64,000 nt of DNA from assembly GCF_001443605.1 (NCBI RefSeq), contig NZ_CP013118.1:4675001-4739000 (forward strand), read 5' to 3'. The notes below the pieces were generated by a model. It saw only the letters and a program-made list of their open reading frames with translations. It was not told where the DNA came from and searched no databases. Position numbers and translations under genes: made by a program. The number at the start of each line of letters is the position of its first letter. Positions within the stretch are counted from its first letter, which is position 1. Source of the stretch: Salinivirga cyanobacteriivorans (lineage in GTDB: Bacteria > Bacteroidota > Bacteroidia > Bacteroidales > Salinivirgaceae). This document shows, in pieces, positions 11,083-25,977 of this stretch.

Positions 11083-12704
11083 CCTGTTTTCCGGATTATT
11101 TTCACCTAAAAAAATAAGCTATTAGTTATCAGCACATTATCATAATGATTCTTTTAAAAGTGGGTGTCCCGTGCTATATTTGTTGAATGTTTGTTCGGAA
11201 GAAGAAAAATAAAAGTGGTAGTGTAAGCATTCAAATCATTAAGAAAATTGATAGGAGTAATAAAGTTATCAAGACTATAGGCTCCTCATCAGAACCAGAT
11301 GAAATTGAACGACTTTATTACAAAGCCTTATATGAACTGCCTCGTTTATATGGCCCTACGTTATTTGATCCACTAAAAGAATCCAGAATATGCGATCTAA
11401 CAAATGATGATATTCATGTAGTTGGACCTGAGCTTATTTTCAGCAAAATTTTCAATTATATAGGATTTAATCAAATAAAGGATGAGTTGTTTAAAGCCTT
11501 GTGTATTTCCAGGATAACACATCCAGGCAGTAAACTTAATTTATCTCTATATCTACAGGAAAACCATAAATCAGATATTTCTGTAGATAGGATTTATTAT
11601 TTCATGGATCGTTTAAACTCGAGGTATAAAAAGCAAGTTGAAGAGATCAGTTTTCAATACACAAAAAAAGTATTGGGGGGCAAAATAGGAATTGTCTTTT
11701 ATGATATGACTACGATTTATTTTGAAAGTAGTCAACCAGACGAACTAAAACAAACAGGATTCTCAAAGGATGGGAAACACCAGCACCCACAAATATTTTT
11801 AGGGCTGCTAGTCGGCAAGGAAGGGTATCCAATTGGATACGATATTTTTGAAGGTAGTATCTATGAAGGCCATACTTTGATCCCTATATTAGAAAAATTT
11901 GAGCGGCGGTTTAGTTTAAATAAACCCATTGTAGTAGCTGATGCCGGGTTATTATCAGCAAAAAATATTGAGTCACTGAAAATCAATCGATATACATTCA
12001 TTTTAGGAGCAAGAATCAAAAATGAAAATAATATCATAAAAAAACAGATCAGGGAACTGAACCTGCAAGATGGACAAATTGCAAAAATAGAAAAGCCAGA
12101 TAACACTGTCTTATTTATAAGTTTTTCTGATAAAAGGGCAAAGAAAGACCTTTCAAATAGAGAACGTGGATTAAAAAGATTAGAGAAAAGCCTAAATGCA
12201 GGTCGATTGACAAAAAGCAATATTAACAACCGTGGTTACAACAAGTATCTAAAAATGCAAGGAGAACTCAAGATAAATATTGATTATGAAAAGTTTAGAA
12301 ATGATTCTACATGGGATGGTTTAAAGGGATATCTCACAAACACAAAACTATCAGGGAAAGAAGTAATTGAAAACTATAATAACCTATGGAAAATTGAAAA
12401 AGCATTTAGGATATCTAAGACTGACCTTAAAATCAGACCAATTTATCATCGATTAAAAGAAAGAATTGAAGCTCATATTTGTATTTCATTTGTTTCATAC
12501 TTACTGTACAAAGACTTAGAAAAAACACTTAAAGAGAATGACACTGGCATATCTATAAATAAAGCAATTAAAGCTATAAATAAGATGTATGAAATTCAAG
12601 TCGGTAATAAAAGAATTCTACTTAGGAACAATGAAACTCAACAAAACATTATTGACCTAATAAACTCGAAATTTTAAAAATGGGTGTCCTATCCGGAAAA
12701 CAGG
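11083..12704 (+). mobile_element. IS1634-family insertion sequence (1622 bp)
   Basis: The element is bounded by perfect 14-bp terminal inverted repeats: CCTGTTTTCCGGAT at 11083-11096, with its reverse complement at 12691-12704. It is flanked by 111-bp direct repeats of the target gene. Its only gene is a 496-residue transposase. IS1634-family elements are known for exceptionally long and variable target duplications, which fits. It looks intact and potentially active. Confidence 0.9.
11187..12677 (+). CDS. IS1634-family transposase
   Basis: 496 residues, full length for the family. The N-terminal part (MFVRKKKNKSGSVSIQIIKK, then VIKTIGSSSEPDEIERLY) is the typical beta-strand start of IS1634/IS1549 transposases. 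DDE-type segments are visible: GIVFYDMTTIYFES near residue 168, PIVVADAGLLSAKNIESL near 248 and the late glutamate region YNNLWKIEKAFRISKTDLKIRP near 400. It ends 27 bp before the right terminal repeat. No frameshift is seen. Confidence 0.9.
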   Translation: MFVRKKKNKSGSVSIQIIKKIDRSNKVIKTIGSSSEPDEIERLYYKALYELPRLYGPTLFDPLKESRICDLTNDDIHVVGPELIFSKIFNYIGFNQIKDELFKALCISRITHPGSKLNLSLYLQENHKSDISVDRIYYFMDRLNSRYKKQVEEISFQYTKKVLGGKIGIVFYDMTTIYFESSQPDELKQTGFSKDGKHQHPQIFLGLLVGKEGYPIGYDIFEGSIYEGHTLIPILEKFERRFSLNKPIVVADAGLLSAKNIESLKINRYTFILGARIKNENNIIKKQIRELNLQDGQIAKIEKPDNTVLFISFSDKRAKKDLSNRERGLKRLEKSLNAGRLTKSNINNRGYNKYLKMQGELKINIDYEKFRNDSTWDGLKGYLTNTKLSGKEVIENYNNLWKIEKAFRISKTDLKIRPIYHRLKERIEAHICISFVSYLLYKDLEKTLKENDTGISINKAIKAINKMYEIQVGNKRILLRNNETQQNIIDLINSKF

Positions 12705-12815
12705 AAACAGTGGGTTTTGAGAAACTTGCCAATGCATTTGACAGTAATGCTAAGTCAACATCTAGTTTGCGTCGCATTCAGCGTTTTATCGCATCGTATG
12801 CATTGGATGCAGACT
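12705..12815. repeat. Right copy of 111-bp target-site duplication
   Basis: Identical to 10972-11082 by base-by-base reading, starting directly after the element's right end (CCGGAAAACAGG) and running into the continuing transposase frame (TTAATTGCCAAG). Confidence 0.95.
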
Positions 12816-13749
12816 TAATTGCCAAGTTCATTTTCAGTCTTTTACCCAACAAAAAAGACCTTAAGCTTAGCATAGATAGAACGAACTGGAAGTTTGGTCA
12901 AACAGACATAAATATATTTATGCTGGGGGTAGTATACAAAGGAGTAGCTTTCCCTTTATTGTTTAAAATGTTGGATAAACGAGGTAACTCAAGCTCACAA
13001 GAAAGAATAGACTTAGTTAACCGTTTTATACGACTTTTCGGTGCTGATTGTATTGATTCATTAATGGCTGATAGAGAGTTTGTTGGCGAGGAGTGGATTA
13101 AGTTCCTTAATGATAATCAAATACGTTATTACATTCGAATCCGTAATAATTTTAAAATCTTCATTCCACATAAGATTAAAGAAATTAAAGCTTGGTGGCT
13201 GTTCAACAATCTAAAAATGAACCAGTTCTTACATTATCAACCGATCGTACGTATGGGCTCACAACTATGTTATATTTCTGGATGTAAGTTAAAATCCAAG
13301 AATAAAGGTTCTGATTTTTTGATTATTGTATCATTCAACAAACCCGAACAAGCTCAAATAAATTATAAAGATAGGTGGCAAATTGAAACATGCTTTAAAG
13401 CGATGAAATCTAGTGGGTTTGATATTGAAAAGACTCACTTGCAAGAGATAGACCGGATTGAAAGATTAACACTAATGGTAATGATTGCCTTTGTTTGGTG
13501 ATATAAAATAGGAATATTCCTTCATGAACATATTCAGAAAATAGAAATAAAAAAACATGGTCGTAAGGCTAAAAGTATATTTAAACTAGGGCTTTCATTT
13601 GTTGCGAATGTTTTACTAAACTTTAAAAGACAGACAGATATAAATGTGTTTAATTTTTTGTCATGTACTTAGCAATTGGCTATCTTTTTCAATTTTATCG
13701 CTCATGGCCGAAATCTTTATAACAATGTAAAGTTAGTAATATATTATTC

Positions 13750-16972: not shown

Positions 16973-17091
16973 AGCTTTATCTTTTTAGACAAAGGTAGGA
17001 GTGGAGTGCGACAAATTGTGGCGCCGCAGAATTGCGGATTAAAAATATTTAACGCAATGTCCATAATTCTATGATTCGTTGCGATCGCCGC

Positions 17092-17627
17092 GTTTTATCG
17101 TTGCGTTCGTTGCGTTAAACCAACGTGTCACACCTCCGGTGTTTTCGATGGGTGTATACTCGTTTCTACCGACATGACACGCTTAACGGTGTTAAGAGGA
17201 AGGGCTATTTTGTGTTCATTTTGCCTTCTTTGTGTACATTGTGGTAAAAAATATTAGAACGCGGATCAGGCGGATTGAATTGACGAGTTTGATTACGGTG
17301 TGTTGTTGGTTGAGGTTTTCTGTTTTTATGAGTTGACGAATTAACTACCTAATGAATATCTACGATAAGCGGATTTTTTCGGATGATCCGTTACGGTATT
17401 TTGTCGTATCACACCTCCGATGTTTTCGTTCGGGGGATTGGCTTTTCTACTGATAGACCATGCCGCGTTTATTATTATTTGAGCTGGAATAGATAAGAGA
17501 ATTTTCTAGACGCTGATTTTAATGACTTTGACTGATTAAATGTGCGCCAATAAAGCTCCTAAAACTAGTCATATCTGCGTCTAATAATCCTGATTCTTAC
17601 TTTGCGATCGCTGTGTTTTTATCGTTG
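17092..17627. repeat. Repeat unit A of ~525-bp tandem array
   Basis: This intergenic stretch starts with GTTTTATCGTTGCGTTCG and ends with CTGTGTTTTTATCGTTG, where an IS3 copy is inserted. It contains two copies of a ~70-bp motif beginning TCACACCTCCG (17128 and 17409). The motif carries small hairpins (ACACCTCCGGTGT and CTTAACGGTGTTAAG). Unit B after the IS repeats it in the same order. No gene is visible from 16973 to 17684 apart from this repeat. Confidence 0.8.
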
Positions 17628-17684
17628 TGGAGTTGCTACATTTGCCCGGACATATAGTTAAGCCTAAAGAACTAGATTTGCATT

Positions 17685-18005
17685 ATGAGTGTACGAAGAA
17701 AGAAGTATGACAAAGAATTTAAAAAAATGGCAGTAGAGCTTTGTCAGACACAGCAAAACAGGCCAAAAAAGGAAATTGCACAAGAGTTGGGCATTACAGA
17801 CAACATGTTAAACCGTTGGGTCAGGGAGCATGATAAATATGGAGATAACAGCTTTGCTGGACAAGGCAGGCCTGTGATGACCGACAAGGAGAAAGAGCTG
17901 GCACAGCTTCGAAAAGAACTGCGGGAAACGCAAATAGAGCGCGATATCTTAAAAAAGGCAGTGAGCATTTTCTCCAAGGGCGACAGCAGAAATACGAATT
18001 CATAA
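17685..18005 (+). CDS. IS3-family transposase OrfA
   Basis: 106 residues with an HTH_Tnp_1-type N-terminus (KKYDKEFKKMAVELCQTQ; IAQELGITDNMLNRWVREHD) and a C-terminal coiled coil with leucine heptads (ELAQLRKELRETQIERDIL). A slippery run AAAAAAG at 17951-17957 lies where IS3 elements shift to -1, and the -1 frame is open from there to the orfB start, so a fused OrfAB transposase is expected. Confidence 0.92.
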   Translation: MSVRRKKYDKEFKKMAVELCQTQQNRPKKEIAQELGITDNMLNRWVREHDKYGDNSFAGQGRPVMTDKEKELAQLRKELRETQIERDILKKAVSIFSKGDSRNTNS

Positions 18006-18007
18006 AC

Positions 18008-18862
18008 ATGTACCAGCAAGAATTTGCTGTTGAGAAAATGTGTAAAGTGCTGGGGGTGGCAAGAAGTAGTTACTATGCATGGTTAGAAAGGAAACCATCA
18101 GCGAGGGTCATGGAAACGATAAGGTTGATGAAAAAAATCGGAGAAATATATCATGATAATAAAGGGCGTTACGGGAGCCCAAAGATAACCGATGAGCTGA
18201 ATGAGCAGGGGTTTCAGGCATCGCGCCCGCGTATTGGCAGGATGATGAAGAAAATGGGGCTTCGGAGCATTACCCGCAAAAAGTACAGGGTAGCTACGAC
18301 GGATTCAAACCATGGGTTCCGGATAGCTGAAAACATCCTGAAAAGGGAGTTTTACCAGGAAGAGGTTTCTAAGGCATGGGTATCAGACATCACATACGTC
18401 CCCACGGCAGAAGGGTGGTTGTATTTGACCATCATCATGGACTTATTTGACCGTAAAATCGTGGGATGGTCGCTTTCAGAAGACTTAACCACTGAGGCTA
18501 CGATCATCCCGGCCTGGCAAATGGCCAAAACCAACCGGCCAGTAGCACCCGGGTTGATTTTTCACTCTGACAGGGGCGTGCAATATGCCGCAGATAGCTT
18601 TAGAAAAGAATTAAAAGGCAATGATGTGGTTCAAAGCATGAGCCGCAAGGGCAACTGTTGGGACAATGCAGTGGCCGAAAACTTCTTTAAAATCATCAAG
18701 TCCGAGATGATTTATCACTATGATTACCGCTCTGTAAAACAAGCAAAAAACGCAATTTTTGAGTTTATAGAAGTATGGTATAATCGAAAAAGAAAACATG
18801 CTTACCTGGGATATAAAACACCAGAAGCTTTTTCAAATTTTTTAAATATGAACGCGGCTTAA
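18008..18862 (+). CDS. IS3-family transposase OrfB (DDE integrase)
   Basis: 284 residues with the rve integrase core. The DDE residues sit in KAWVSDITYVPTAEGWLYL, LIFHSDRGVQYAADSF and the late NAVAENFFKIIKSEMIYH. An HTH_21-like segment (KGRYGSPKITDELNEQGF) precedes the core. It is intact and complete. It lies in the -1 frame relative to orfA, 2 bp after its stop, and is probably made mainly as the OrfAB frameshift product. Confidence 0.92.
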   Translation: MYQQEFAVEKMCKVLGVARSSYYAWLERKPSARVMETIRLMKKIGEIYHDNKGRYGSPKITDELNEQGFQASRPRIGRMMKKMGLRSITRKKYRVATTDSNHGFRIAENILKREFYQEEVSKAWVSDITYVPTAEGWLYLTIIMDLFDRKIVGWSLSEDLTTEATIIPAWQMAKTNRPVAPGLIFHSDRGVQYAADSFRKELKGNDVVQSMSRKGNCWDNAVAENFFKIIKSEMIYHYDYRSVKQAKNAIFEFIEVWYNRKRKHAYLGYKTPEAFSNFLNMNAA

Positions 18863-18892
18863 TCTTTTGTCCATTTTTTTGTTGCAATTCCA

Positions 18893-19419
18893 GTTTTTAT
18901 CGTTGCGTTCGTTGCGTGAAACTATTGTGTCACACCTCCGGTGTTTTCGATGGGTGTATACTCGTTTCTACCGACATGACACGCTTAACGGTGTTAAGAG
19001 GAGTAAGGGCTACTTTGTGTTCATTGTGCCTTCTTTGTGTACATTGTGGTAAAAAATATTAGAACGCGGATCACACGGATTGCATTGACGAGTCTGATTA
19101 CGGTGTGTTGTTGGTTGAGGTTTTCCGGTTTTATAAGTTGACGTATATACTACCTAATGAATATCTACGATAAGCGGATTTTGGCGGATGATCCGGTATG
19201 ATATTTTGCAGTATCACACCTCTGGTGTTTGCGTTCGGAGTATTAGCTTATCTACCGATATAACACGCTTAAGGGCTTTTACTATTCTTTCAGAAAGATA
19301 AATGAATCTTTTAGACCCTGATTTTAATGACTTTGACTGATTAAATGTGCGCCAATAAAGCTCCTAAAACTAGTCATATCTGCGTCTAATAATCCTGATT
19401 CTTACTTTGCGATCGCTGT
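18893..19419. repeat. Repeat unit B of ~525-bp tandem array
   Basis: 527 bp directly after IS3 copy 1. Motif copies begin at 18930 and 19214. Its last ~115 bp, including CAATAAAGCTCCTAAAACTA, match the end of unit A, and its first 189 bp are identical to unit C. Short open frames through this stretch are chance reading of the repeat and are not called. Confidence 0.85.
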
Positions 19420-19608
19420 GTTTTTATCGTTGCGTTCGTTGCGTGAAACTATTGTGTCACACCTCCGGTGTTTTCGATGGGTGTATACTCGTTTCTACCG
19501 ACATGACACGCTTAACGGTGTTAAGAGGAGTAAGGGCTACTTTGTGTTCATTGTGCCTTCTTTGTGTACATTGTGGTAAAAAATATTAGAACGCGGATCA
19601 CACGGATT
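19420..19608. repeat. Repeat unit C, truncated
   Basis: Identical to the first 189 bp of unit B (through CACGGATTG), then diverges. It contains one motif copy at 19457. It lies about 145 bp upstream of the AAA_14 ATPase gene; the AT-rich spacer 19609-19754 shows nothing else. Confidence 0.85.
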
Positions 19609-19754
19609 GGACTGATTTATATGGATAATTGGGGTGTTGTAATTCATAAGTCAATAACAAATTATTGATTTTATAATTAAAATTCATAAATGGATTATTG
19701 AATTTATACAATTTTTTCGTAAATTCGCTTATGAAATTATTAATCTAAGGCAAC

Positions 19755-20945
19755 ATGGAAAGATTATTTCGCATCTCAAATGAAGCTAAGCGCAGGGTTT
19801 CGAATCGTTTTCATCGTTACCTGTATGATGAAATCGATTGGGATAACCGTTTAATTGGCATTTCAGGTGCCCGGGGAAGTGGAAAAACTTTTTTGATGCT
19901 TCAAAAACTTAAAGAACTTGCATCGCATACAATGGCGCTTTACGTAACCCTTGACGACGTTTATTTTACGGGTAACAGTCTGGTTTCATTCGTGGATGAT
20001 TTTGAAAAACAAGGTGGTAAATATCTTTTTTTGGATGAGGTGCATAAATATCCTAATTGGTCGCAGGAGTTGAAAAATATTTATGACTTTCATCCCCATC
20101 TGAAAATTGTTTTCTCAAGTTCTTCAGCACTGGAAATTTTTAAAGGTTCTCATGATTTAAGTAGAAGAGCACTGGTTTATAATCTTCCGGGATTGTCTTT
20201 TCGGGAATATCTTTTGCTAATGCATAAGGTTGATATTGATTCTGTTACCCTGTATGATTTGTTGCATGAACATGAAGAATTCTCATCTAAAGTGCTGACG
20301 CATATTAAGCCTCTTCCGCTTTTTAAACAATATCTGAAAGAGGGCTATTACCCTTTTGTGATTGAAACCGGGAGAAATTATCTCAGACAATTAATGAATA
20401 CAATCAATACTGTGTTGGAAGTAGATTTGCCTGCCATTCATCATATTGACTTTCATTCGTCGTTAAAAATTAAAAAACTTTTATCTATTATAGCTCATAT
20501 TGTACCGTATAAGCCGAATGTGGAAAAACTGGCCAGACAAACTGATCTGACGCGGCCAACACTATTGAAATATTTATCTTATCTCGATAAAGCACAGGTT
20601 TTGAAATTGTTATCCACGGATCCAATTGGTATAAATTATCTCAATAAACCGGAGAAGGTTTATTTGCAAAACACTAATATTGCCTATGCATTTGCAGATT
20701 TGAATGCTGATATTGGAAATTTGAGAGAAACCTTTTTCTTAAATCAGTTGTCAAACAAACATCAAGTTATATATCCACAAAAAGGAGATTTTTTGATTGA
20801 TGGAAAATATCTTTTTGAAGTGGGTGGAAAAAATAAAAATCGTAATCAGATTCAAGGTGTAGAGCATGCATTTGTGGCTGCTGACGATATTGAGTATTGG
20901 TTTAAGTCTAAAATCCCATTATGGGCTTTTGGATTTTTGTACTAA
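19755..20945 (+). CDS. AAA_14/DUF4143-type ATPase
   Basis: 396 residues. The Walker A is IGISGARGSGKTFLMLQKL near residue 38, and Walker B is KYLFLDEVHKYPNWSQELK near 95. A winged-helix segment follows (VEKLARQTDLTRPTLLKYLSY near 265), then a nuclease-like C-terminal DUF4143 region (NLRETFFLNQL, GDFLIDGKYLFEVGGK). These are accessory-genome ATPases, widespread in Bacteroidetes and of unknown function, possibly related to mobile DNA or defence. The gene is bracketed by repeat units C and D in the same orientation. Confidence 0.8.
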   Translation: MERLFRISNEAKRRVSNRFHRYLYDEIDWDNRLIGISGARGSGKTFLMLQKLKELASHTMALYVTLDDVYFTGNSLVSFVDDFEKQGGKYLFLDEVHKYPNWSQELKNIYDFHPHLKIVFSSSSALEIFKGSHDLSRRALVYNLPGLSFREYLLLMHKVDIDSVTLYDLLHEHEEFSSKVLTHIKPLPLFKQYLKEGYYPFVIETGRNYLRQLMNTINTVLEVDLPAIHHIDFHSSLKIKKLLSIIAHIVPYKPNVEKLARQTDLTRPTLLKYLSYLDKAQVLKLLSTDPIGINYLNKPEKVYLQNTNIAYAFADLNADIGNLRETFFLNQLSNKHQVIYPQKGDFLIDGKYLFEVGGKNKNRNQIQGVEHAFVAADDIEYWFKSKIPLWAFGFLY

Positions 20946-20950
20946 GAAGT

Positions 20951-21300
20951 AGTGTCACACCTCCGGTGTTTTCGATGGGTGTATACTCGATTCTACCGAT
21001 ATGCCACGCCTAACGGCGTTAAGAGAAGTAAGGGCTACTTTGTGTTCATTGTGGTAAAAAATATTTGAACGCGGATCACACGGATTGGACTGATTGAGCG
21101 GATTATAGTGTAATTGTGTTTGAGATTAGGCAGTTATCAGATTTTGGCTGTCAATTACGTAACGAATATCTCCGATAAGCGGATTTTTGCGGATGATCCG
21201 TTACGGTATTTCGTCGTATCACACCTCCGGTGTTTTTGTTCAGGGTATTAGCTTTTATACCGATATACCACATCTAACGGGGTTACTTAAGGGCATTTTT
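20951..21300. repeat. Repeat unit D, diverged partial copy
   Basis: Motif copies begin at 20955 and 21219, in the same order and orientation as in units A and B. The stretch also shares the GCGGATCACACGGATTGGAC-type spacer and the CCGATAAGCGGATTTTTGCG segment. It lies 10 bp after the AAA_14 stop, so units C and D flank that gene as direct repeats. Confidence 0.75.
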
Positions 21301-21459
21301 GTGTTAACTACGCTATGAGTTAATATGTAGTGTCTTTGTTGTAAGTGTTAAGTGAAAATGTTACAAAGTAACCATCTTTCCATCATCAACTTTTAAAACT
21401 GGGTGATTAAAAATTTGCTCATAATCATCTGGAATTGCAACAAAAAAATGGACAAAAGA

Positions 21460-22314
21460 TTAAGCCGCGTTCATATTTAAAAAATTTGAAAAAGCTTCTG
21501 GTGTTTTATATCCCAGGTAAGCATGTTTTCTTTTTCGATTATACCATACTTCTATAAACTCAAAAATTGCGTTTTTTGCTTGTTTTACAGAGCGGTAATC
21601 ATAGTGATAAATCATCTCGGACTTGATGATTTTAAAGAAGTTTTCGGCCACTGCATTGTCCCAACAGTTGCCCTTGCGGCTCATGCTTTGAACCACATCA
21701 TTGCCTTTTAATTCTTTTCTAAAGCTATCTGCGGCATATTGCACGCCCCTGTCAGAGTGAAAAATCAACCCGGGTGCTACTGGCCGGTTGGTTTTGGCCA
21801 TTTGCCAGGCCGGGATGATCGTAGCCTCAGTGGTTAAGTCTTCTGAAAGCGACCATCCCACGATTTTACGGTCAAATAAGTCCATGATGATGGTCAAATA
21901 CAACCACCCTTCTGCCGTGGGGACGTATGTGATGTCTGATACCCATGCCTTAGAAACCTCTTCCTGGTAAAACTCCCTTTTCAGGATGTTTTCAGCTATC
22001 CGGAACCCATGGTTTGAATCCGTCGTAGCTACCCTGTACTTTTTGCGGGTAATGCTCCGAAGCCCCATTTTCTTCATCATCCTGCCAATACGCGGGCGCG
22101 ATGCCTGAAACCCCTGCTCATTCAGCTCATCGGTTATCTTTGGGCTCCCGTAACGCCCTTTATTATCATGATATATTTCTCCGATTTTTTTCATCAACCT
22201 TATCGTTTCCATGACCCTCGCTGATGGTTTCCTTTCTAACCATGCATAGTAACTACTTCTTGCCACCCCCAGCACTTTACACATTTTCTCAACAGCAAAT
22301 TCTTGCTGGTACAT
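21460..22314 (-). CDS. IS3-family transposase OrfB, copy 2
   Basis: 284 residues, translation identical to the OrfB of copy 1, with DDE core segments VSDITYVPTAEG, HSDRGVQYAADS and NAVAENFFKIIKSE. Complete and apparently functional; the two identical copies suggest recent transposition. Confidence 0.92.
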   Translation of the reverse strand: MYQQEFAVEKMCKVLGVARSSYYAWLERKPSARVMETIRLMKKIGEIYHDNKGRYGSPKITDELNEQGFQASRPRIGRMMKKMGLRSITRKKYRVATTDSNHGFRIAENILKREFYQEEVSKAWVSDITYVPTAEGWLYLTIIMDLFDRKIVGWSLSEDLTTEATIIPAWQMAKTNRPVAPGLIFHSDRGVQYAADSFRKELKGNDVVQSMSRKGNCWDNAVAENFFKIIKSEMIYHYDYRSVKQAKNAIFEFIEVWYNRKRKHAYLGYKTPEAFSNFLNMNAA

Positions 22315-22316
22315 GT

Positions 22317-22637
22317 TTATGAATTCGTATTTCTGCTGTCGCCCTTGGAGAAAATGCTCACTGCCTTTTTTAAGATATCGCGCTCTATTTGCGTTTCCCG
22401 CAGTTCTTTTCGAAGCTGTGCCAGCTCTTTCTCCTTGTCGGTCATCACAGGCCTGCCTTGTCCAGCAAAGCTGTTATCTCCATATTTATCATGCTCCCTG
22501 ACCCAACGGTTTAACATGTTGTCTGTAATGCCCAACTCTTGTGCAATTTCCTTTTTTGGCCTGTTTTGCTGTGTCTGACAAAGCTCTACTGCCATTTTTT
22601 TAAATTCTTTGTCATACTTCTTTCTTCGTACACTCAT
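22317..22637 (-). CDS. IS3-family transposase OrfA, copy 2
   Basis: 106 residues, identical to OrfA of copy 1, with an HTH N-terminus and a leucine-rich coiled coil. The same A6G slippery site precedes the -1 open frame into orfB. Confidence 0.92.
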   Translation of the reverse strand: MSVRRKKYDKEFKKMAVELCQTQQNRPKKEIAQELGITDNMLNRWVREHDKYGDNSFAGQGRPVMTDKEKELAQLRKELRETQIERDILKKAVSIFSKGDSRNTNS

Positions 22638-23926
22638 AATGCAAATCTAGTTCTTTAGGCTTAACTATATGTCCGGGCAAATGTAGCAACTCCAATCTTT
22701 ATGAAATGTATGAACCGGAATAATAGCTTTGGGGTTAATGGCATCGACCAATTTTTTTAATGTAGCCACATCAGCATGGCCACTGGTGTGAATGTTGTGA
22801 ATTGAAAAACCCTTCGATTTAAACCGATGAACAAATGCTTTGGTTGAAGATTGAGCTTTGTATCCTTCCCACAGTGAATAGATGAAATTTCCATTTGATA
22901 GATCAAGTTTTCTAATTTCGGGCTCCATAGAAGGTCGCACCACCATTACGAACTGATCAGGGTTGGCGTGAATTTCTTCCCGGGTAATTTTATATTTTGT
23001 GAACTGATATGCTACTTGTTCTTTTCCTGAATCAAACAATCGCGTTGTGGTTCTATGTGCGTAAAAAACTTTTATGTTCGTAAAACCTTTGGCAGGTGAG
23101 GGGAGGCCTGCATACTTTGATAATGTGTTGAGAATCTGTGCTGTGTAAATATCAACAACAAAAGTTTTATGCGTTTGCAAACAAGCTTTGTAAATGGAAA
23201 CCAGCCGATCTATATTTTGACTTGATGTATAGATATAGTTAATTCCTGTCGAATTTTTAAATGTATCAACCAGTTCATTTTCAATATCTTCTTCGGTTTT
23301 TAATTGTGATGGATTTCTGCCAATGGTGGTTCCTTCCATCATCAGGTAATCGACATTTTTAGGGGCATTGTGCAGTAACCAATAAAAAGCTTTTTGTTTT
23401 CTGCCGTGCGCACGAAAATCGCCGGTGTAAAAAATACGTTTGCCTTCGGCCTCAATTAAAAAAGAATATGCATCAAATGCTGAATGATCGTTCCAGTATG
23501 GCGTAATGGTAAAATCTCCAATCTGGAACGGTTCGTTTTTATTAAAATACTTTGGGTGACTAATTACGTTGTTTTGAGGTAAAAATATATTGTTGATTTT
23601 CAATATTTCATGTGTTGCTTTACCCAGCCATATCGGAATCTGGGGCGATAAATATTGCATGAGTCCAAAATGATCGGCATGTGGATGCGAAATCAGCAAT
23701 CCACCAATTTGAGTGTTCGAATCGTATGCACTTTTGATATCAGGAAGTATTCCGTCCCTAATAAGTCTATCAACTGAATGATGCTTGTGCTGATCAAAAT
23801 GAAAACTACCACCTTGCTTATTAACCAGTGGCGTTCCAAAATTGACGAGAATGCGTGTGCTTGCAGTTTGTAGTTCGATGCAGGTACCGCCAATTTCGGA
23901 TGAGCCGCGGTGGATGATTAGGTTCA

Positions 23927-24541
23927 TCATAATATTTGTGGTTCAAACTTCTTGAATACCCAATTTACATCATTTGCATCAATTTCCACTAATAAAGTGC
24001 ACCTTTCCTTGCTGCGTCTGATGATTTTCTCTTTGAGATTGCTATGGAAAAACACTTCATTCTTTTTACCAACAATTATCAATATATCTTCATCGGGTAA
24101 TGTGCTTTTTCCATCGTAAAGGCTTCGCAAATCTGTTTTAGGAAATAGTTCGGGAATAGTAGCCGGACATACTTCCTCTTCAGTTGAGAGTTGTGACATA
24201 CATTTTGCTATTTCAGTATCCTGATAGCGGTCATACATGTAGCCCATCTCAAAATATTTCCCTTCATGCTCCAAATGCTCTTTGTCACCAAAAGAGGCAA
24301 CTATTATCGGATATTTTCTTCCGGGTTCTTCCTGGATTTTGATTATGGTATCAGCCACAGCCGAAAAGACATCTGAATAATTGGCCAGCCCTTTCTGCAC
24401 AAGTACAAGAACACTTTTATAACTTCTATACGTCTCTTCGTATTCATCATAACCATATCCACGTGAATCTCCCTCTTTTGAAAATGAAGGCGCATAATAT
24501 TTTAAGTCGCTGAGAATACGATATGGTATTTCAGTTTTCAT
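23927..24541 (-). CDS. Unknown protein, middle gene of WYL-linked operon
   Basis: 204 residues, no signal peptide or membrane segment. I recognise no family. Visible parts: an N-terminal segment with many Tyr residues (SRGYGYDEYEETYRSYKSVL), a predicted alpha/beta region (YPIIVASFGDKEHLEHEG), and a C-terminal region with strands ILIIVGKKNEVFF and CTLLVEIDANDVNWVF. The 3' end overlaps the beta-CASP start by 4 bp and the 5' end overlaps the upstream gene by 11 bp, so three proteins are made from one coupled transcript. A role in the same process as the nuclease-like protein is likely but unspecified. Confidence 0.7.
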   Translation of the reverse strand: MKTEIPYRILSDLKYYAPSFSKEGDSRGYGYDEYEETYRSYKSVLVLVQKGLANYSDVFSAVADTIIKIQEEPGRKYPIIVASFGDKEHLEHEGKYFEMGYMYDRYQDTEIAKCMSQLSTEEEVCPATIPELFPKTDLRSLYDGKSTLPDEDILIIVGKKNEVFFHSNLKEKIIRRSKERCTLLVEIDANDVNWVFKKFEPQIL

Positions 24542-24935
24542 GTTTTAATAGTTTTAAAATTCTTTGCAAAAACAACCGCTCTTCAATAAATGCTTTGATC
24601 CAATCAAACGAAAACTTTGCGCTTATTAACTTCTCGGGAATGCCGGTTGTGCTACTCATTTTAAATTGTGTAGTTTCATCTGCTGCAATAACTAAAAAGC
24701 GACTAAGCTGTGTATGGTCTGATGTTTCCAGATCAACAGGATTGATACACGCAACCAGTTGATTTTCTTTTGCAAAAACCTTTATCTGGTCTGTAAGTAC
24801 TCTATTTGTTGACAAAACGAGTATTGAATCGGCATTTTCCGGTAACAAATCAATTCTACTTGTGGAAACCAATTCTAATCCATGTCCGGTTAGCAAATGA
24901 TGAATCTTTTCTATTTTTCGACTGTCCATAAACAT
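24531..24935 (-). CDS. Unknown protein, first gene of WYL-linked operon
   Basis: About 134 residues from the ATG at 24935, which has a GAGG 13 bases upstream; a longer frame begins only at a TTG (24986). The sequence shows an alternating strand/helix pattern (ADSILVLSTNRVLTDQIKVF, then LVACINPVDLETSD, then RFLVIAADETTQF), suggestive of a small alpha/beta domain such as a Rossmann-like or receiver-like fold. The family is not recognised. A basic C-terminal helix (EERLFLQRILKLLKHEN) overlaps the next gene's start. Confidence 0.65.
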   Translation of the reverse strand: MFMDSRKIEKIHHLLTGHGLELVSTSRIDLLPENADSILVLSTNRVLTDQIKVFAKENQLVACINPVDLETSDHTQLSRFLVIAADETTQFKMSSTTGIPEKLISAKFSFDWIKAFIEERLFLQRILKLLKHEN

Positions 24936-24990
24936 CTGTTTATTATCGTCCTCTTTATTTTCAAATGTGCAAACACAAGACGCCAAAACA

Positions 24991-25053
24991 TGTCGTTTTT
25001 AAAAATACTTTGCACTTAGCGACGCATATTGTCGTTTGGTTTTCCTACCTTTG
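24991..25053 (+). promoter_or_regulatory. Divergent promoter region between the WYL regulator and the beta-CASP operon
   Basis: A TACCTTTG at 25046-25053 matches the Bacteroidetes -7 consensus TAnnTTTG for the WYL gene, 24 bp before its ATG; no well-spaced -33 TTTG is seen. TGTCGTTT occurs twice (24991-24998 and 25030-25037), the second forming an inverted CGAC/GTCG pair around 25021-25034. These are candidate sites for the WYL regulator controlling both directions. Confidence 0.45.
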
Positions 25054-25077
25054 ACTAAACAATTAAAATTCAACAAC

Positions 25078-25977
25078 ATGGGTAAAAGAACACAAATACT
25101 ACGTTATCACCGCATTATCAGTCATTTGATGAATGCCCCGCTTAGTTACGATGAGCTAAATCACAAGCTTGAGAGCGATTCTAAATGGCACGGAGAAACC
25201 CTAACCCGCTCTCAGCGTACTTTGCAGCGCGATATTAAAGATATTTGGGAGCTGTATAATATTGAAATCAAGGCAAAACAAGATGGAAAATACTATATCA
25301 TTTCCAATGAACAACAGGAGTTTAATAACCGCTTGTTTGAAGCGTTTGATACGTTTATTGCGCTGAACATCAAAGAGAACGTGTCAAAAGATATTCAATT
25401 TGAACAACGCCGGCCACAGGGAACAAGCAATTTTTCCGGATTATTGCATGCAACACAGGAAAAGTTGGAGATAAAATTTTTATACCAAAAATTCTATGAA
25501 GAGGAGCCGGAAATGCGGCATATTGATCCTTATCTGCTCAAGGAATTTCGGTATCGGTGGTATATTATCGGGAAAGACCATAAAGATGACCACATAAAAA
25601 GTTTTGGATTAGACCGCATTCAGGGATTAGAACACACGAAAGTGCATTACGATTCAAAATCAAAAAATGAAGTTGCCAAACGCTACAAAGACTGTTTCGG
25701 CATTGTTTCTCCCAATGCAGAAAAGCCGTCGAAGGTGGTTATTTCATGTACAAAAATCCAGGGAAGATATATACAAGCTATACCCTTACATCATTCACAA
25801 CACACCATCAAAGAAACCAAAGATGAAATCGTTTTGGGCATGAAAGTATATCTCACTTACGACTTATTTATGGAGCTATTGAGTTATGGCGAAAACATTA
25901 AGGTGCTTGAGCCCAAATCACTGGTAGTTATTATGAAACAAAAACTAAAAGCCGGGTTTGAACAATATCAGGTTTAA
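25078..25977 (+). CDS. WYL-domain transcriptional regulator
   Basis: 299 residues from the ATG at 25078 (MGKRTQILRYHRIISHLMNA). Residues 1 to about 90 are a winged helix (YDELNHKLESDSKWHGE, SQRTLQRDIKDIWELYNIEI). Residues ~120-200 are the WYL domain: LEIKFLYQKFYEEE, HIDPYLLKEFRYRWYIIGKD and KSFGLDRIQGLEH; the family's name motif appears as RWYIIG. The C-terminal WCX extension (KPSKVVISCTKIQGRY, ENIKVLEPKSLVVIM) follows. WYL proteins bind DNA and sense ligands, often nucleic acid derivatives, and frequently control defence or repair genes. It is divergent from the three-gene operon and so the likely regulator of it. Confidence 0.88.
   Translation: MGKRTQILRYHRIISHLMNAPLSYDELNHKLESDSKWHGETLTRSQRTLQRDIKDIWELYNIEIKAKQDGKYYIISNEQQEFNNRLFEAFDTFIALNIKENVSKDIQFEQRRPQGTSNFSGLLHATQEKLEIKFLYQKFYEEEPEMRHIDPYLLKEFRYRWYIIGKDHKDDHIKSFGLDRIQGLEHTKVHYDSKSKNEVAKRYKDCFGIVSPNAEKPSKVVISCTKIQGRYIQAIPLHHSQHTIKETKDEIVLGMKVYLTYDLFMELLSYGENIKVLEPKSLVVIMKQKLKAGFEQYQV

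Follow-up and report, generated by a model that had tools for sequence, protein, structure and literature searches.

A WYL regulator beside an IS-interrupted beta-CASP hydrolase gene in Salinivirga cyanobacteriivorans: a possible reduced copy of a mobile nuclease cassette

Background

WYL regulators of the BrxR/CapW type control defence operons (PMC9122601, PMC9122589), and BrxR-type members frequently accompany phage-defence systems (PMC9122601). Beta-CASP nucleases have also been described in immunity, as Cas14, the effector nuclease of type VII CRISPR-Cas, belongs to this group (PMC10910872, PMC12669027).

The locus described here combines a WYL regulator with a beta-CASP protein. It is found in a stretch of 64,000 nucleotides from Salinivirga cyanobacteriivorans (contig NZ_CP013118.1, positions 4,675,001 to 4,739,000), hereafter called the window. 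The original prediction proposed an undescribed system consisting of a WYL regulator, an RNase J-like hydrolase and two small proteins, here named p134 and p204.

Results

The arrangement of a WYL gene facing three overlapping genes is real and is confirmed by open reading frames and Pfam matches (Table 1). The overlaps are 11 bp between p134 and p204 and 4 bp (ATGA) between p204 and the beta-CASP gene. Alternative TTG starts at 24986 and, upstream of the WYL gene, at 25036 would give proteins of 151 aa for p134 and 313 aa for the regulator. The description of the surroundings as a mobile island has partial support: on one side there are two IS3-type copies and dispersed repeats of about 200-270 bp, but the other side resembles ordinary chromosomal genes as judged from translations.

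Table 1. Positions of the features of the locus in the window
Feature	Position	Strand	Basis
WYL+WCX transcription regulator	25078..25977	+	299 aa from ATG; Pfam WYL and WCX over cut-off
Divergent intergenic region	24936..25077	.	TGTCGTTT twice; TACCTTTG at 25046
p134, small protein	24531..24935	-	ORF
p204, conserved cassette accessory protein	23927..24541	-	Homologues in L107, L172 and L173
Beta-CASP (RNase J-like) hydrolase ORF, 421 aa	22665..23930	-	Pfam; alignment with invariant metal-ligand motifs; IS boundary
IS3-type element splitting the beta-CASP gene	21430..22694	-	Pfam rve and HTH_Tnp_1; 10 full genome copies; GAT on both sides
IS3-type orfA	22317..22637	-	
IS3-type orfB	21460..22314	-	
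Beta-CASP gene, displaced 3' end	21361..21429	-	Frame continues the C-terminus of the homologues

The divergent gap measures 142 bp from ATG to ATG, close to the 140 bp first given, and TGTCGTTT does occur twice within it (24991-24998 and 25030-25037). However, the repeat is not above chance. When the 142-bp gap is randomised, 31-48% of the resulting sequences contain an exact 8-base direct repeat, as do 172 of 900 windows taken from this region, so the repeat gives no evidence of an operator and was rejected as one. No clear inverted-repeat operator was found in the gap. The TACCTTTG upstream of the WYL gene resembles the Bacteroidota -7 element and may have that role.

The third gene of the operon encodes a beta-CASP protein with Pfam matches over the cut-off to Lactamase_B_2 and RMMBL and with the HxHxDH motif. 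Nine residues (H82, H84, D86, H87, H149, D171, H381, H385 and H407) are invariant in the beta-CASP alignment. A histidine in motif C is typical of RNA-acting beta-CASP enzymes, and since His407 in this position is invariant, the substrate is probably RNA.

A hydrolase of about 433 aa was predicted and a beta-CASP gene is indeed present, but it is interrupted by an insertion sequence that the prediction missed. The homologues have about 434 aa and the window protein diverges from them after residue ~410. An IS3-type element has been inserted after codon 412 with a flanking 3-bp duplication, so that the present frame consists of 412 native codons (22695-23930) and nine derived from the IS. The break comes after every catalytic motif and after the motif-C histidine, and the residues lost are the last ~22, beyond motif C. 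There are 10 full copies of the element in the single-contig 4.8-Mb genome, and because they are near-identical the insertion is likely to be recent.

Two of the ten copies (17628-18893 and 21430-22694) are less than 4 kb apart in opposite orientation. Between and beside them (17091-21273) are dispersed direct repeats of ~140-270 nt, in 3-4 copies that are 64-99% alike, which do not form a CRISPR array. An AAA_14/DUF4143 ATPase gene (19755-20945), related to the PADLOC candidate PDC-S01, adjoins the IS copy that breaks the beta-CASP gene.

Relatives of the beta-CASP protein are sporadic. With the window's own genome included, 8 of 295 genomes from the class and 28 of 393 from the order have one. 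Four further genomes from the same family have none, and relatives occur also in genome contigs from many phyla. Plasmids of Rhizobium, Ochrobactrum, Cupriavidus, Sphingomonas, Cereibacter, Butyrivibrio and Prevotella carry them. An alignment-based scan found relatives in viral contigs, where a scan with the single protein found nothing. In the phylogenetic tree the window protein falls in a supported clade of 13 rows (100/95) with members from Cloacimonadota, Thermodesulfobacteriota and Neomarinimicrobiota. The tree conflicts with taxonomy, and this mixing of phyla points to horizontal spread. One beta-CASP protein, in a Spirochaetaceae contig (L016, 4656-7649), has 997 aa and its C-terminal part reads as an AAA ATPase.

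The genes beside these relatives were compared in 80 dereplicated loci, considering same-strand genes of 150-520 aa that directly adjoin the beta-CASP gene and scoring PD-(D/E)XK by a motif pattern. Archaeal and other distant loci (L048-L061) were excluded from the linkage counts because they are far from the family. The motif is present in 48 of 88 adjoining genes and in 13 of 223 control genes at least four genes away. An iterative profile search gathered 45 ORFs into one partner family in which E, D and E-x-K are invariant. These residues, together with model and structure matches, place the partner in the PD-(D/E)XK superfamily, its Pfam matches being below the cut-off. In one locus (L107) the partner is fused to p204, and the AlphaFold model of the fusion is confident for the PD-(D/E)XK domain. 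The structural matches of this domain are nearly all PD-(D/E)XK enzymes, including Shedu SduA (Z 7.8), Upx (7.3), Can2 (6.6) and Card1. These Z values are middling and the weight lies on the coherence of the list, which suggests a PD-(D/E)XK fold. Some loci have partners from other PD-(D/E)XK-like families, and the beta-CASP protein therefore appears as the constant component and the partner as the variable one.

Accessory genes are found in some loci and encode a calcineurin-type phosphoesterase (L121 and L122) or, as judged by eye, a TPR-like protein. L121, from pORIO1 of Cereibacter, has an intact cassette of partner, beta-CASP and phosphoesterase, and L120, from Rhizobium phaseoli, one of beta-CASP and partner. 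The phosphoesterase genes are located at 9215-9859 in L121 and 9455-10024 in L122, and one of the phosphoesterases matches the PADLOC candidate PDC-S10 weakly (E 5e-4). By eye, similar genes are also found near the beta-CASP genes of L072, L097, L102, L103, L026, L034 and L035.

The window copy differs from this pattern in having p134 and p204 in place of the PD-(D/E)XK gene. No such gene was found in the operon, or in the rest of the genome with two queries run without a positive control. The copy is atypical because the usual partner is absent, and beta-CASP activity in the window is uncertain since the last ~22 residues are lost as well.

Neither small protein was recognised by the original prediction, and p204 and p134 indeed have no match in Pfam, NCBIfam, PADLOC or PHROGs. 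Conserved linkage to the cassette holds for p204 but not for p134. Homologues of p204 with 34-41% identity were found in three further loci, all with an adjacent PD-(D/E)XK partner, and in two of these (L107 and L172) also with a beta-CASP gene. In L107 the beta-CASP gene that comes after the p204 fusion is frameshifted. The order in L172 is p204 (with an internal TGA), PD-(D/E)XK and beta-CASP, and in L173 p204 precedes a gene of 180 aa and a PD-(D/E)XK gene of which the contig, ending there, contains the start. Of the four p204 loci, the window alone lacks a PD-(D/E)XK gene. No match to p204 was found among PDB sequences or in plasmids, phages and viral contigs. In its succession of strands and helices p204 is reminiscent of alpha/beta proteins of the Rossmann or vWA kind, but the two-sequence structure prediction (pLDDT 42) is too poor and no fold is claimed.

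For p134, the 395 genomes of the phylum gave no firm homologue. The best match (E 0.001, inside a frame of 960 residues) is discounted because this value is at chance level for 395 genomes. A protein of 133 aa encoded directly downstream of the L013 beta-CASP gene has weak similarity to p134, which from these searches appears to be essentially an orphan.

The WYL protein matches PF13280 (E 1e-13) and the WCX family PF25583 (E 1e-6). Its nearest solved sequence is PafBC (E 2e-8, phmmer against the PDB), and neither BrxR nor CapW is among the phmmer PDB matches at E 0.1. Of the 80 loci, 15 have a WYL gene no more than three genes away from the beta-CASP gene (14 of 79 if the window is left out), compared with three WYL genes in this whole genome. 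Relatives of the window regulator adjoin beta-CASP genes in other loci, while most members of the beta-CASP family have no WYL gene nearby.

Defence genes are common around the beta-CASP genes. In ten genomes, 98 flanking genes matched 92 PADLOC families at 1e-10 compared with 25 for 99 control genes of the same genomes, a comparison that counts families rather than genes and includes generic helicase models. The flank matches include AbiE and components of Mokosh as well as several candidate families with very low E values, whereas those of the control genes are mostly to helicase-type models. Downstream in L107 are genes for GmrSD/Schlafen, reverse transcriptase and HsdR, downstream in L042 is an apparent type I methylase gene, and restriction genes adjoin in L120 and L125. 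The L107 reverse transcriptase gene (11150-13096, RVT_1 E 1e-8) lies between the GmrSD/Schlafen and HsdR genes, on the island that carries the p204 fusion.

Discussion

Our favoured reading, with moderate confidence, is that a WYL-associated nuclease cassette spreads horizontally and is represented at this locus by a reduced copy with fresh damage. The cassette is probably directed against phages or mobile elements. Its constant part would be the RNase J-like hydrolase of the beta-CASP group, which in other loci is mostly paired with a PD-(D/E)XK-type protein, with p204, the TPR-like protein and the calcineurin-type phosphoesterase as variable accessories. The WYL protein might keep the operon low until it senses infection or damage through a nucleic acid or nucleotide. 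The accessory or PD-(D/E)XK partner could then recognise foreign nucleic acid, and the beta-CASP effector, activated by its partner, would degrade RNA and so protect against phage or mobile DNA. A point against reading the cassette as a defence system is that defence-rich neighbourhoods are also found around many restriction and toxin genes.

The original prediction of an undescribed WYL/beta-CASP system thus survives in part. WYL linkage, the recurrence of p204, the defence-rich flanks and the lack of PADLOC models for the cassette agree with it, but it missed the usual PD-(D/E)XK core and included the nearly orphan p134. A broader and tentative proposal is that the cassette represents a widespread new immune system in which exchangeable partners of the PD-(D/E)XK type and accessories like p204 switch an RNA-cutting beta-CASP effector, often under WYL control. 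The window would then be a sub-type that worked with p134 and p204, without PD-(D/E)XK, until the IS struck.

Function may have been lost in the window, given the absent partner and the displaced end of the gene. The IS inside the beta-CASP gene, the failure of two queries (run without a positive control) to find the partner in the genome and the lack of a copy in four other genomes of the family would all suit a dying, functionless remnant that survives by chance after losing PD-(D/E)XK and being hit by the IS. This is nevertheless rather doubtful, because the remaining genes have open frames, p204 and beta-CASP keep their ATGA coupling, the IS lies behind the catalytic motifs and the near-identical IS copies point to a recent event.

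A role in stress or repair is unlikely. The WYL protein would in that case answer DNA damage like PafBC, and the nuclease pair would act on RNA or DNA, damaged or stalled, from the host or the mobile element. PafBC is a DNA-damage regulator and is the nearest solved sequence to the WYL protein, and both the beta-CASP and the PD-(D/E)XK fold are common in repair enzymes. However, the patchy distribution, plasmid carriage, defence-gene flanks and RNA-type motif-C histidine are against this role. An addiction or element-competition module, with the nucleases as a host toxin checked by accessory proteins or the regulator and serving the carrier plasmid or island, is improbable, because despite the plasmid carriage, the tight translational coupling of small partner genes and an IS hit in the nuclease gene that could have been selected, the commonest partner is a nuclease-type protein with intact active-site residues rather than a small antitoxin, and gene orders and partner families vary.

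If the nuclease cassette is confirmed as a defence system, a multi-phylum RNase J-like family annotated as 'MBL fold metallo-hydrolase' becomes a candidate immune effector with interchangeable partners, and one more cassette is linked with WYL regulators. The window also serves as a warning that a damaged copy without its partner can be mistaken for a complete system.

Compared with known systems, the window protein shares with RNase J (TIGR00649) the MBL and beta-CASP architecture, HxHxDH and the RMMBL region, and the nearest solved sequence (E 8e-21) is EF2904 of Enterococcus faecalis (PDB 2az4), an uncharacterised hypothetical beta-CASP protein. Membership of RNase J was rejected (87.5 bits against a TIGR00649 cut-off of 400). 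The family members have ~434 aa compared with ~550 in RNase J chains, and their patchy distribution and gene partners are unlike those of a housekeeping RNase. Type VII CRISPR-Cas was likewise rejected, with 30.5 bits for Cas14 against a cut-off of 800, and no CRISPR-like repeat array was found at 12-34 kb of the window.

The usual partner has the PD-(D/E)XK residues in common with Shedu (SduA), Can2/Card1 and Upx, and its predicted fold is similar to theirs. In contrast to these, it lacks a sequence match to the PADLOC models, has a beta-CASP companion and is absent in the window copy; as the similarity is in fold only, the partner was rejected as a Shedu member. The window regulator resembles BrxR/CapW in its winged-HTH-like N-terminus, its WYL and WCX domains and the adjacent nuclease operon, but phmmer against the PDB matched it to PafBC and not, at E 0.1, to BrxR or CapW, and no clear inverted-repeat operator was found in the divergent gap.

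The beta-CASP protein, p204, p134 and the partners match no system model in PADLOC 2.0.0, where matches are limited to the WYL gene (CRISPR-associated WYL models) and the phosphoesterase (PDC-S10). The pairing of beta-CASP and PD-(D/E)XK is not described in the open literature searched, a scope mostly outside subscription papers and preprints. As this scope is partial and PADLOC dates from 2023, so that newer catalogues might describe the pairing, the cassette is only provisionally regarded as undescribed. The folds of its components are already known; what is apparently new is their pairing.
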